From Nitrospinae bacterium CG11_big_fil_rev_8_21_14_0_20_45_15 (GTDB lineage: Bacteria; Nitrospinota; Nitrospinia; Nitrospinales; VA-1), in NCBI GenBank assembly GCA_002787235.1, contig PCWG01000042.1, positions 124,001 to 188,000 on the forward strand: a DNA stretch of 64,000 nt, in the 5' to 3' direction. Shown in pieces: positions 35,572-39,353 of the stretch. Within the stretch, counting starts at the first letter, position 1. Each line of letters begins with the position of its first letter. The notes beneath the pieces are model-generated. The model did no database searches and was not told the DNA's origin. It saw only the letters and a program-made list of their open reading frames with translations. A program made the position numbers and the translations under genes.

Positions 35572-37287
35572 TTAACGGAATATTATATAAGCACCCCCAC
35601 AGGCACTGCGTTGATTGTTCCTGATGATTCCCGGAGCACCTATCAATATGTCTTTGCGCCCATCCCCGTTGAAATCCCCTAAGGCCATGGATTTGCCAAA
35701 TGATTCGCTGGGACCAAGGCTGGGTGGTTGAAAAATACCGGAAGATTGCGACCTGCGTTTATCATTGTTTGATAAAAAGAAACTCATAGCACCTGCCCCA
35801 AAATCAAATATTTTTTTTGGGGCACCGGGAACTCCTATCAACAGATCATCAATTTTGTCTTTATTCAAGTCGATGGCAATCACACTTGAACCAAAATCTA
35901 ACAAACTCTTTCCTGACATTGCAGACTCATAGTTATCACCGGATGTCCAAAAATTACTGATATAAACTTTGTTGGGTTTGTCCTTGGAAAAAATTGATTT
36001 GTCCCAGGCATTCCTGCCGGGAATCCCAAAAACAATGCCATTTAAAAATCGGTCCTTTGATTTAATTTTTGCGCCAGGAGAACTGATCAAAATGTCTGTG
36101 ATACCATCGCCATTGATATCTCCCGAACTGAGATGTTTCCCAAAAAACTCCAAATTTTTTGAACCAAAAATTATAGCATCCGCATCACGGTTCAAATCCA
36201 GATGAGGTGGAAGTATTTTTTTACCGAGAACGACATAGACCTCGCCAACCTCCTCACCTTTGTTAAGAAATCCATCCGCAAAAGGGGCACCGATTAAAAT
36301 ATCATCGAGACCATCCGCATTGACATCAGACAACAGCACAGAAAAGCCAGCCTGGTCGGCCATGTTCCCTGACAGAGCCATTCTATTGGAGGCCCCATCA
36401 ATGCCAGCCAAACGGACATTGTTATTTTGAGACAGATCAATGACCTTGGGGAAATTCTTCCTGCCATATAAAATATACACGGACCCAACCTTGGACATGG
36501 ACGAATCATCCATTTGAGAGCCTGGAGCCCCGATGATTAAATCCATTTCCGTATCACCGTTTAAATTCCCGGCAGCAATAGAAAATCCTGTCAGATCCCC
36601 TGTGTTAGCACCTAGAATAATCAGATCGGCCATTCGAGAAAGATCGACCACTCCACTGAGATTGGATTTTCCAAAAACAACAAAAATGGCACCCGAATGT
36701 ATTCGTTGATTGCCTTGTCCATTGTGGTGGGGAGCACCCATTATAAGATCTTTGATGCCATCCCCATTTAAATCAGCAAAAGTCAATGCATGTCCCAATC
36801 GGTTTCTTCCAGCATCATCACCTGTCCAAAAGCTCAAATCGACATCACTCTTCAGATCGATACTTTTAGAAAAATTTTTCTTGCCAAAAATCATGTAAAC
36901 CCAACCAGAAATGGATGTATCTTTCAACACCCCATCAGATTCAGGAGCACCCAAAACAATATCGTCCAGACCATCATTGTTAAAGTCACCCGCGGAAACA
37001 GAAATCCCTGTTTCCCCGCCAGCGTCATTCAGCATTAGAATTTGACCATCCCGATTTGGGATTCCAAAAATCTTGGAAAACGAATCAATTTTTTTATTAT
37101 TTATCTGTAGAAAATTAGAGTTTGGTTCAAACATACTTGAAGATAAATTTTCAGAGGCAATTTCAGAAGATGAAGACTCCAATGGAATTACAATTCGCCC
37201 CCAAGTCCCAAAAAAGGTATTTGGCCCACAAGCTGGAAACAATATTAATGTGGGCATTAATAAAATCAGGAAAATGAATTTTTTCAT
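35572..37287 (-). CDS. FG-GAP repeat lipoprotein, integrin-alpha-like propeller
   Basis: 571 residues from ATG 37287, chosen because MKKFIFLILLMPTLILFPAC is a lipoprotein signal. The longer in-frame extension to 37401 overlaps a divergent promoter. Seven FG-GAP units follow, each with a calcium-loop-like DxNxDGxxD and an (I)GAP end: DFNNDGLDDIVLGAPESD, DLNGDGIKDLIMGAPHHN, DVNADGLDDILIGAPFADG, DFNGDGRKDILIGAPG and others. One loop (NLNGDTEMDLIIGAPG) lacks the second acidic/Gly pair. Seven units fit a closed propeller exposed at the cell surface or periplasm, probably for adhesion or calcium-dependent binding. It appears monocistronic. Confidence 0.87.
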   Translation of the reverse strand: MKKFIFLILLMPTLILFPACGPNTFFGTWGRIVIPLESSSSEIASENLSSSMFEPNSNFLQINNKKIDSFSKIFGIPNRDGQILMLNDAGGETGISVSAGDFNNDGLDDIVLGAPESDGVLKDTSISGWVYMIFGKKNFSKSIDLKSDVDLSFWTGDDAGRNRLGHALTFADLNGDGIKDLIMGAPHHNGQGNQRIHSGAIFVVFGKSNLSGVVDLSRMADLIILGANTGDLTGFSIAAGNLNGDTEMDLIIGAPGSQMDDSSMSKVGSVYILYGRKNFPKVIDLSQNNNVRLAGIDGASNRMALSGNMADQAGFSVLLSDVNADGLDDILIGAPFADGFLNKGEEVGEVYVVLGKKILPPHLDLNRDADAIIFGSKNLEFFGKHLSSGDINGDGITDILISSPGAKIKSKDRFLNGIVFGIPGRNAWDKSIFSKDKPNKVYISNFWTSGDNYESAMSGKSLLDFGSSVIAIDLNKDKIDDLLIGVPGAPKKIFDFGAGAMSFFLSNNDKRRSQSSGIFQPPSLGPSESFGKSMALGDFNGDGRKDILIGAPGIIRNNQRSACGGAYIIFR

Positions 37288-37355
37288 GGTCAATAAGGCT
37301 AAAGCAAAGAAGATTGTCGATTTAAGGGTAAAATTTCCTGTTGACAGAGGCGTTG

Positions 37356-37383
37356 TTGACGTAGTAATAGTATACAATATAAT
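37356..37383 (+). promoter_or_regulatory. Sigma-70-type promoter before the DUF2292 gene
   Basis: TTGACG (37356-37361), a 16-base spacer and a perfect TATAAT (37378-37383). Predicted transcription starts near 37390, about 68 bases before the microprotein ATG at 37458. No other plus-strand gene could use it. Confidence 0.65.
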
Positions 37384-37457
37384 TTTGATAATGAAAATCA
37401 TTTATATTATTGAGTTTTAGGATTCGGATTTATTGTTCCTGAGTGTCTTGGATAAAG

Positions 37458-37577
37458 ATGGAAAAAGTAATCAATTGTATTAAAAAACTAGTGAATGCGA
37501 TGTTCACAGGAAAAGTCATCCTGCATTTTCACTTGGGCAGAATCAAAAAGATCACTAAGGAGGAAGAAATAACTTAA
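37458..37577 (+). CDS. DUF2292 (YezD-like) microprotein
   Basis: 39 residues with ATG 37458, TAA 37575 and a GGA-containing ribosome site 5-7 bases upstream. The sequence opens MEKVINCIKKLVNAMFTGKV and continues ILHFHLGRIKKITKEEEI. That matches the DUF2292/YezD pattern of a short helix, a G-x-V strand, a (D/G)G-x-I turn and a terminal Glu/Lys-rich tail. Members are 38-60 residues, of unknown function, and are often near sulfur or anion metabolism genes. It has its own promoter and is followed by a terminator before the haem-porin gene. Assignment is from pattern memory. Confidence 0.6.
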   Translation: MEKVINCIKKLVNAMFTGKVILHFHLGRIKKITKEEEIT

Positions 37578-37633
37578 TACCAGCTAGTTACAGATTTTAA
37601 GCGGAATATTTTGCGGAGGCCAATCCAATGGAC

Positions 37634-37682
37634 GCCCCGACCGGTTTCACCGAAAGGTGATTTCTGGTCGGGGCTTTTTTTT
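37634..37682 (+). terminator. Intrinsic terminator between DUF2292 and haem-porin genes
   Basis: Stem GCCCCGACC (37634-37642) pairs perfectly with GGTCGGGGC (37666-37674). The loop itself contains a small TTTCACC/GGTGATT hairpin, and eight T follow. It would end the DUF2292 transcript. The downstream gene starts only 24 bases later, so either read-through or conditional termination must supply it, unless a promoter overlaps the hairpin. Confidence 0.85.
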
Positions 37683-37705
37683 GGTTTTAAAAGGGGAGAA
37701 CGGAA

Positions 37706-38854
37706 ATGATTAGATTGATTAACGGTTTTTTAACGATTGTGTTTGTGACAACAATCTTTTTAACAGCGATTCCTGACAAGGCAGAAGCCTTACCGGCTTT
37801 TGCAAGAAAGCACGGTTTCCCATGCACCCAATGTCATGTTCAGTTTCCAAAACTGAACAAATTTGGGATCGCATTTAAAAATCGTGGCTATCGACTGGCG
37901 GATGAAGAAGGTAAGTTTGTATGGGAAGACAAAGTTTGGCCTGTTGCCGCAGTGGGTCGTATGGGTTTCAGGTCAACAAATGATCGTACGGGCAATCCTG
38001 GAGGTGTTAGCAATGAATTCGTTTTTGAAGGATTGGAATTATTCAGCGGTGGAACGCTTGCACCTCGAGTTTCTTATTTCATTGACGCATTGACTGTCGA
38101 TAATTTCCCACTTCTGCAATTCAATGACATCCTTCCCGACAGTGCCTTGAATATCAAAATAGGGCAATACAATGTTGATAATTACGCACTGTCTCATCCA
38201 AGAAGACTTACATTTTCAACTTACCTGGTCCAAACAACCTCATCCCGAACCGATAATGTAACTTTTGGCAATCAGGGAATTGAGATCAACGGTCAATTCG
38301 AAAAGTCCGGGATACGGTACATACTGGGTGGCGGTGATGGCTCTACCACAGAGACCGAAGATAAAATGTTCAAATCGTTCTTTGGATATTTTATGAAAGA
38401 TTTTGGTGAAGCAGGCCATACCTTTTCCATCATGTTCCGAACCGATGAAAGCGGAACAAAAACCAATAGCGGAAAATCATTCACCGCAGGAGGCGGTGTG
38501 CAACTGTTTGGAGAAAAATGGGAGCTGATAGCCCATGCCTATCATTTCAAGGGAGGGGATGATTTGAATTTTACCGAAAATGCAAAAATCCATGGCTATC
38601 AAGCTGTCAGTGGAACCGTCGAAGGAACCTATAAATTCACCGAAAAATTACTAGCCGTGGCCCGTTATGATTGGCATGACACCCTTGGCAGTAAGGCCAA
38701 AGAGTATGCTGTCGTTACAGCCTTACAGTATCACTTCGTGCCCAATATCAAACTCAATCTGGAATATCGAACTTCTGATGTGAGAGTAGGGGGGACAAGC
38801 AACACTGCTGGAGACGAACAGTCCCTCAGAACCTATCTGCGCTTTGGATTTTAA
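37706..38854 (+). CDS. Monohaem cytochrome-porin fusion, outer membrane (Cyc2-like architecture)
   Basis: 382 residues. Signal peptide about 1-28. The mature N-terminus is ALPAFARKHGFPCTQCHVQF, a single CxxCH c-type haem site followed by PKLNKFGIAFKNRG. The remaining 320 residues alternate as a beta-barrel and end in YLRFGF with a terminal Phe. Proteins of this layout sit in the outer membrane with the haem at or in the barrel; Cyc2 iron oxidases are one known example. Many relatives have no tested function, so electron transfer across the outer membrane is plausible but not shown. The ribosome site is GGGGAG before ATG 37706. Confidence 0.75.
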   Translation: MIRLINGFLTIVFVTTIFLTAIPDKAEALPAFARKHGFPCTQCHVQFPKLNKFGIAFKNRGYRLADEEGKFVWEDKVWPVAAVGRMGFRSTNDRTGNPGGVSNEFVFEGLELFSGGTLAPRVSYFIDALTVDNFPLLQFNDILPDSALNIKIGQYNVDNYALSHPRRLTFSTYLVQTTSSRTDNVTFGNQGIEINGQFEKSGIRYILGGGDGSTTETEDKMFKSFFGYFMKDFGEAGHTFSIMFRTDESGTKTNSGKSFTAGGGVQLFGEKWELIAHAYHFKGGDDLNFTENAKIHGYQAVSGTVEGTYKFTEKLLAVARYDWHDTLGSKAKEYAVVTALQYHFVPNIKLNLEYRTSDVRVGGTSNTAGDEQSLRTYLRFGF

Positions 38855-38885
38855 TCAAAAAGAAGAAGTCTGAAAAGTTACCATC

Positions 38886-38941
38886 GAGGCCTCCCGGACC
38901 GAGTCTCCTCCATTGCATGAAATGCATGCCGGGAGAGCCTC
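38886..38941 (+). terminator. Long imperfect hairpin after the haem-porin gene
   Basis: GAGGCCTCCCGG (38886-38897) pairs with CCGGGAG-A-GCCTC (38929-38941) with one bulged A. An inner GCAT/ATGC element caps it. The T-tract after it is weak, so it may be a processing or stabilising structure. The other 230 bases up to the tRNA hold nothing I can identify. Confidence 0.5.
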
Positions 38942-39178
38942 CTTGGTGTATTTTCAATTCATTGAGGTCACGGATCGATTGTGATCAGTCTTGGATGATG
39001 ATTACTTTTAAAAGCGGGGGAACTCTCTGCCAGGGTATTAAATGAAGATGTATTTGTTTTTGAAGACGACTGCCTGTGTGATATTATCCGCAGGAAGTTG
39101 AAATACCTTTAAGCCGTTTGATTCCCATACGTACACTGATTCGTTTTCTAATTTTTTTAAATCATTGATAAATAGATT

Positions 39179-39252
39179 GCCCCCGTAGCTCAGCAGGATA
39201 GAGCACCGGATTCCTAATCCGTAGGTCGTGCGTTCGAATCGCGCCGGGGGCA
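39179..39252 (+). tRNA. tRNA-Arg (anticodon CCT)
   Basis: A 74-base cloverleaf. The acceptor GCCCCCG pairs with CGGGGGC and the discriminator is A. D-arm GCTC/GAGC, anticodon loop TTCCTAA, T-arm GTGCG-TTCGAAT-CGCGC. The anticodon CCT reads AGG arginine codons. The lowest anticodon-stem pair is a C-T mismatch, a small oddity in an otherwise normal tRNA. CCA is not encoded. A GCCGGA/TCCGGC hairpin lies about 20 bases downstream. Confidence 0.96.
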
Positions 39253-39353
39253 CTCTTCCGCAGAGGGCGAATTGGCCGGAACCAGATGATAAATCGGGTC
39301 CGGCTTTATAGCTTTGGTTCGAAGTTTCTCTATCTGAGGGCACTTGATATATT

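Follow-up and report, generated by a model that had tools for sequence, protein, structure and literature searches.

Gene organization of the locus

The window (i.e., the whole stretch of 64,000 nucleotides of DNA analyzed here) encodes a Cyc2-like cytochrome-porin with a single haem motif and, divergent from it, an FG-GAP β-propeller protein that is probably a lipoprotein. The region between the two genes includes a promoter-like site, a Fur-box-like site, a small ORF and a terminator-like hairpin (Table 1). The window is part of a Nitrospinaceae genome (G000; 3.37 Mb, 97.5% complete), a family of marine nitrite oxidizers, and relatives that carry the porin gene include the Nitrospinaceae MAGs OFTM135, OFTM387 and OFTM91. 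Judged from sequence conservation, the porin gene is real: its ORF is more than a chance reading frame because orthologues were detected at 76-78% identity across all 382 residues in three MAGs and at 55% identity (residues 18-382) in genome G029.

Table 1. Features of the porin and FG-GAP locus (positions are those of the window).
Feature	Position	Strand	Basis and remarks
FG-GAP β-propeller lipoprotein gene (probable)	35572..37287	-	PF01839, 185.5 bits; neighbour in 5/5 orthologue loci; lipobox by inspection
Promoter-like site, TTGACG-16-TATAAT, 11/12	37356..37383	+	such sites in region 5 vs 4.2 ± 2.1 in shuffled sequence, no excess
Fur-box-like site, GATAATGAAAATCATTTAT, 15/19	37387..37405	.	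consensus match; directly 3' of promoter-like site
Conserved 39-codon small ORF, weakly DUF2292-like	37458..37577	+	also in L003, L004 and L005
Terminator-like hairpin and T run	37634..37682	+	ends 23 nt 5' of porin ATG
Cyc2-like monohaem cytochrome-porin gene	37706..38854	+	382 aa, ATG start; orthologues; barrel predicted
Signal peptide, 28 codons, AEA at end	37706..37789	+	inspection and hydropathy
CTQCH haem-binding motif, codons 40-44	37823..37837	+	sequence

Haem motif and predicted barrel of the porin

The N-terminus of the porin is hydrophobic, with a best 19-residue mean hydropathy of 2.17 at residue 4 and values of at most 0.81 beyond residue 40. Since this hydrophobic stretch ends in AEA before LPAFARKHGFPCTQCHVQFPKL, where by inspection the mature chain begins, the sole CxxCH motif (Cys40-His44) lies just past the signal peptide; hydropathy and inspection thus agree with the earlier note, which had placed one CxxCH directly behind a signal peptide. 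The Cys, Cys and His residues of the motif were invariant across 26 aligned porin homologues. His36 was considered as a second haem ligand and rejected, as this position is Tyr in L009 and variable elsewhere. Searches of the porin against Pfam, NCBIfam and PDB sequences returned no match, and PHROGs returned only two (E 0.28-0.29).

The earlier note had also claimed a full β-barrel in the 382 residues. This was not confirmed, as sequence searches, AlphaFold2 and strand count were all unsupportive. The AlphaFold2 model of the porin, generated from 4 sequences, was unusable (pLDDT 27.7). By a home-made count, 16 amphipathic 9-mers were detected in the porin compared to 12.8 ± 2.3 in shuffled sequences, a number reached by 17 of 200 shuffles and not significant; the counts of the other orthologues were equalled in 15 to 56 of 200 shuffles. 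Speaking for a barrel are the aromatic C-terminal end YLRFGF, a hydropathy profile free of a second hydrophobic helix, a profile-profile comparison in which 26 Nitrospinota rows aligned over the full length with 6 plasmid Cyc2-like rows at 99.1% probability, and PDB profile matches that, though non-significant (E 0.25-0.94), were in seven of eight cases to outer-membrane barrels. When the five orthologues alone were compared to the plasmid Cyc2-like profile, only about the first 100 residues aligned. A β-barrel in the window porin is plausible.

Relationship of the porin to Cyc2

Cyc2 proteins, by the criteria set out in PMC8406198, have a single CxxCH motif behind a signal peptide, an upstream AXPXFAR[Q/K][T/Y] motif, PXL four residues past the CxxCH, a length of at least 365 residues and a fused barrel of 16 strands, and fall into clusters 1-3; sequences without PXFAR[Q/K][T/Y] were dropped from the Cyc2 tree of that study. 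The window porin resembles Cyc2 so described in its signal peptide (assigned by inspection) followed by a single CxxCH, in PxFARK before and PxL after this motif (CTQCH-VQF-PKL), and in its length of 382 residues; the wider porin family, in addition, can be aligned end to end with Cyc2-like proteins encoded on proteobacterial plasmids. Unlike the Cyc2 of that description, the porin has His in place of Thr/Tyr (ALPAFARKH, 8/9 positions), a Fur-box-like site and an FG-GAP lipoprotein neighbour, and no cytochrome partner was found for it in the 64-kb window. Among the 5 members of its clade, the [T/Y] position is satisfied only in L009 (FARKY). The Cyc2-like layout proposed in the earlier note is supported by CxxCH, PxL, a length above 365 residues, the motif at 8/9 and the full-length match of the family, although the five orthologues by themselves align over only ~100 residues.

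Of the 77 Nitrospinota genomes, 33 have a porin homologue at E ≤1e-3. The tree (31 rows) was limited to Nitrospinota and 5 plasmid sequences, with L011, L023, L028 and L068 (incomplete) excluded. The window porin formed a clade with the homologues of G064, G042, G041 and G029 (100/99), and this five-member clade joined the pair G028/G025 (99/98); a second homologue of the window genome (contig C9, L002) fell in a different clade. The five plasmid Cyc2-like proteins stood apart, where long branches meet and deep joins are unsure. Nine plasmid matches were obtained, of which seven were taken (L035-L041, with L041 repeating L035), and in all of these records (L035-L040 and L041) an annotated c-type cytochrome gene is located within ~2.1 kb of the Cyc2-like gene.

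A conserved FG-GAP lipoprotein gene adjoins the porin gene

The FG-GAP gene, overlooked in the earlier note, has its longest ORF start at 37401 and its likely start at the ATG at 37287. Its product has seven FG-GAP stretches above the Pfam cut-off (PF01839) and, by inspection, a lipobox, with CGPxTFxGTW kept in 4/4 sequences; a lipoprotein is probable from these sequence features. The protein sequence matched integrin alpha-5 (E 2.1e-9), and a low-confidence model (pTM 0.64, pLDDT 51.8) had integrin alpha chains as its structural matches.

Porin and FG-GAP genes are divergent in the window, L003, L004 and L005; in L009, the FG-GAP gene is on the opposite side of the porin gene, tail to tail. 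The remaining neighbours mostly differ among the five orthologue loci, with L004 and L005 sharing surroundings. When the 77 Nitrospinota genomes were searched with the FG-GAP protein, 14 were matched at E 1e-10, and the top 7 matches (E ≤2.8e-71) were the seven genes that adjoin the porins of the five-member clade and of G028 and G025. A contig end interrupts the eighth match (G014), and the others were at E 2e-22 or weaker, mostly in long frames. A check of 1.5-kb flanks at 31 loci detected the FG-GAP neighbour in 5, a count that cannot show its absence elsewhere because the sister-pair copies, lying further off, were missed.

Fur-box-like site, small ORF and hairpin upstream of the porin gene

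Upstream DNA was scored against a Fur consensus of the E. coli type. By this approach, a Fur-box-like site was detected in 5/5 orthologues at 15-17/19 (for each, 0-2 of 300 dinucleotide shuffles scored as high), and the site in the window was the weakest of the five. The other homologues tested (n=29, including the same-genome paralogue) scored at most 14/19, the closest being L012 (14/19; 1/300 shuffles) and L036 (13/19; 6/300). This count omitted L014 (short upstream DNA), L030, L034 and L038 (motif pattern missed) and L041 (the repeat of L035). Among the five upstream regions, four are homologous to one another. The Fur-box-like site of the fifth, L009, is partly independent, since the gene order there is different and the small ORF was looked for at this locus and not found.

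In a comparison of the small ORF between the window and L003, differences numbered 4, 5 and 21 at codon positions 1, 2 and 3; a weaker third-position bias was found between L004 and L005 (1, 4 and 5). Assignment of the small ORF to DUF2292 was rejected: the window copy gave no match, and those of L004 and L005 (E 0.036 and 0.041) fell short of the cut-off. The hairpin is conserved in 3 orthologues and is preceded by a conserved CAATCCAA stretch; two-sided changes were found in 3 of 9 pairs among 4 sequences, with 1 of 36 cells unpaired. Positioned before the porin ATG, it possibly acts in transcription attenuation. MDAPTGFTER, considered as a leader peptide encoded within the hairpin, was rejected, as its ATG is missing in L004 and L005. 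In Rfam searches, the gathering score was reached by tRNA only for positions 37300-39300, and by nothing for L003, L004, L005 and L067.

Genome-wide distribution of the Fur-box-like motif

The Fur-box-like site of the module (i.e., the porin and FG-GAP genes) was the best genome-wide match in G064, G042 and G029. In G041, this site had 2 mismatches, with one place better and two equal, and in G000 it had 2 mismatches and was tied with two other places. In G000, the motif pattern gave 11 matches at 10 places compared to 4 for a reversed control; matches and control matches were 20 and 1 in G047, 15 and 7 in G064, 16 and 5 in G042, 19 and 4 in G041, and 5 and 5 in G029. The 10 places in G000 comprised this module, FTR1, an unfamiliar secreted protein and 7 that were uninformative. 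Among the relatives, 22 of 27 loci were inspected, of which 4 were the module, 5 had iron-uptake-type genes and 13 had no identified iron gene. The motif was located 64 bp upstream of a cytochrome c-FTR1 gene in both G000 and G064, 111 and 341 bp upstream of MotA/TolQ/ExbB-family genes in G041 and G047, respectively, and 58 and 72 bp upstream of two ECF sigma factor genes in G047. In sequence, the locus has what a Fur regulon would be expected to show: a box next to the promoter-like site that is conserved among orthologues, a FUR-family protein encoded by the same genome, and further copies of the box at recognizable iron genes.

The window genome encodes two FUR-family proteins and a single FTR1 permease. 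FeoB_C had no match in this genome, an absence that is not final because the genome is not quite complete; the frames with FeoB_N matches (231-829 aa) were taken for other GTPases. On contig C32 (L115:1186-4868), the cytochrome c-FTR1 fusion is followed by a PepSY_TM/β-propeller protein, and these genes form a probable iron-uptake operon. On contig C26 (L114:2292-6186), a Fur-box-like site is located 44 bp upstream of the gene for an unfamiliar 431-aa secreted protein, with an FMN_bind protein encoded after it and genes for a DUF2325 protein and a FUR-family protein alongside.

Cytochrome genes near the porin and its relatives

Among the other ORFs of at least 60 aa kept after an overlap filter in the 64-kb window, none was found to have a CxxCH motif, which bears out the remark in the earlier note that no other cytochrome genes lie nearby. 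The sister pair keeps the FG-GAP gene and has c-type cytochrome genes between it and the porin gene, two in G028 and one in G025 (the Pfam search of these cytochromes covered the G028 pair). No Fur-box-like site was found in the sister pair (13/19 in G028 and 11/19 in G025). Two layouts are present among the porin clade and its sisters, one with cytochromes and one with a Fur-box-like site. Frames that by eye look like transposases lie beside the sister module of G025 (L065:5916-8955).

Haem-type genes were also observed at L071, L072 and L012. A di-haem peroxidase-type gene is ~3.4 kb from the porin gene of L071, and a similar gene with two CxxCH motifs is ~2.8 kb off in L072. At L012, from the same-genus genome G047, two CxxCH genes lie just downstream of the homologue, which has a weaker Fur-like site.

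A candidate module for iron acquisition

Taken together, the porin and FG-GAP genes are best explained, on sequence grounds, as a two-gene, probably Fur-repressed outer-membrane iron-acquisition module, a reading to which we assign a probability of about 0.58. We favour it because of the Fur-box-like site in 5/5 orthologues, the FG-GAP pairing, the one FTR1 and the lack of a FeoB_C match in the genome, the motif at iron genes, the two FUR-family proteins and the failure to find a cytochrome partner within the window. The position of the Fur-box-like site, immediately after a promoter-like site, argues that iron represses the module, as would be more fitting for assimilation than for respiration. 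Precedents add to this reading: psp porins behind Fur boxes in Geobacter metallireducens and Desulfuromonas were proposed for ferrous iron transport (PMC545781), and feoP, a putative porin, is part of the iron-regulated feo operon of Acidithiobacillus (PMC2621215). The likeness to psp is one of gene arrangement, a porin-type gene behind a Fur-box-like site; unlike the window porin, psp has no haem motif described in that account.

By this model, Fur would release its site when iron is scarce, and the porin and FG-GAP genes would both be expressed. Iron would cross the outer membrane through the porin part and exchange one electron with the haem, which would be located at the periplasmic mouth of the pore; the propeller lipoprotein, positioned next to the pore or on top of it, would serve as receptor or cap. 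From there, the iron would pass on to the sole FTR1-type permease, which has a cytochrome c domain and a Fur-box-like site of its own. The haem may oxidize entering Fe(II) for FTR1 or may reduce Fe(III); we think oxidation likelier.

Several findings run against iron acquisition. The haem of the porin needs explaining because iron porins need none; c-type cytochromes accompany the lipoprotein in the sister pair, as would be expected of an electron chain; and haem-type genes are near the L071 and L072 porins. In addition, promoter-like sites were no commoner than in shuffled sequence, motif matches in G029 equalled the control, the site of the window is the weakest of the five, and most motif places elsewhere (7 of 10 in G000 and 13 of 22 inspected in relatives) were uninformative or had no identified iron gene. 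The barrel is only predicted, and a Fur box can be hard to tell from a PerR box (PMC545781).

A first alternative is that the porin is a Cyc2-type iron oxidase: electrons from Fe(II) would enter at the outer-membrane haem and travel by way of periplasmic cytochromes to oxygen or into reverse electron flow, giving a cell of the nitrite-oxidizer type an additional source of energy. The Cyc2-like motif, the full-length profile match of the family and the c-type cytochromes beside the genes of the sister pair and those taken from plasmids are consistent with such a role, as is the origin of the orthologues from OFTM tunnel-biofilm MAGs, in which cyc2-like genes are described as potential iron oxidases (PMC11995701). 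We nonetheless consider it unlikely. The hint of Fe(II) oxidation in the earlier note is weakened by the Fur-box-like site that immediately follows the promoter-like site, by a separate decahaem MtrA/MtrB-type pair in the genome, and by the failure to find in the window a c-type partner such as G028, G025 and the plasmid genes have. The strict Cyc2 motif fails at one position, and genes of the rus operon rise on Fe(II), the opposite of Fur repression (rus of A. ferrooxidans is up on Fe(II) vs sulfur by log2 3.8 in qPCR; PMC2754497).

Less probable still is control by another Fur-family regulator, such as PerR or a manganese sensor, with a module that would deal at the outer membrane with peroxide stress or with another metal, e.g., Mn(II). 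In its favour, PerR boxes are similar to those of Fur (PMC545781), G000 encodes two FUR-family proteins that may differ in specificity, and the L071 copy has a di-haem peroxidase-type gene nearby; the motif before FTR1, ExbB-family and ECF sigma factor genes fits iron better. That the porin is an outer-membrane protein with a structural haem or none, paired with an FG-GAP adhesin for attachment or permeability and not for redox chemistry of iron, appears most improbable: FG-GAP propellers do resemble integrin alpha chains, and haem attachment and barrel are predictions, but the CxxCH Cys, Cys and His are invariant in 26 homologues and Fur-box-like control would be left unexplained.

Cyc2-like genes as markers of iron oxidation

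Genomes and metagenomes are scored for iron oxidation by the presence of Cyc2 homologues (PMC8406198, PMC11995701). The presence of Cyc2-like genes in Nitrospinaceae has already been published: several Nitrospinaceae OFTM MAGs from a tunnel biofilm were reported with cyc2-like genes and three others with MtoAB (PMC11995701). The genes described there are from the same bacterial family as the window, and the orthologues L003-L005 are from the same OFTM series, although the section on cyc2-like genes does not specify individual genes. Unlike the present reading, that report takes its cyc2-like genes as potential iron oxidases, and its section on these genes is silent on Fur sites and the FG-GAP gene. 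What is new is the context of the Cyc2-like gene, i.e., the Fur-box-like site and the adjoining FG-GAP lipoprotein gene. Among the papers listed on Cyc2 together with Nitrospinae, Fur or FG-GAP, none was seen, from its title, the opening of its abstract and its term counts, to describe a Fur-controlled Cyc2-like porin or an FG-GAP partner, which is a weak negative.

We tentatively propose, at somewhat less than even odds, that a branch of the Cyc2 type left energy metabolism to become a Fur-controlled, redox-active iron gate that, with an integrin-like propeller lipoprotein, feeds a cytochrome-fused FTR1. If true, a Cyc2-like gene could not safely be taken to indicate iron oxidation until its promoter and neighbouring genes had been inspected. 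Such an inspection is suggested as a cheap test of iron assimilation vs iron respiration by the present case, a Cyc2-like gene with a Fur-box-like site and a conserved lipoprotein gene in a genome that has an MtrA/MtrB-type pair as well. The module is also a concrete candidate for the iron supply of such bacteria in which FeoB was not found.

The decahaem pair of the window genome is located on contig C26 (L113:6300-9554; ~132299-135553 of the contig), where a DmsE/MtrA-type cytochrome with ten CxxCH motifs (TIGR03508, 265 bits) is followed by an MtrB/PioB-family protein (TIGR03509, 318 bits) in an MtoAB-like arrangement. The porin, if it moves electrons across the outer membrane, would be like MtoAB/MtrAB conduits in this respect; unlike the porin, these conduits put ten haems in a separate protein with a separate MtrB-family partner. 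If the host gains energy from iron, this pair is a simpler candidate than the porin.
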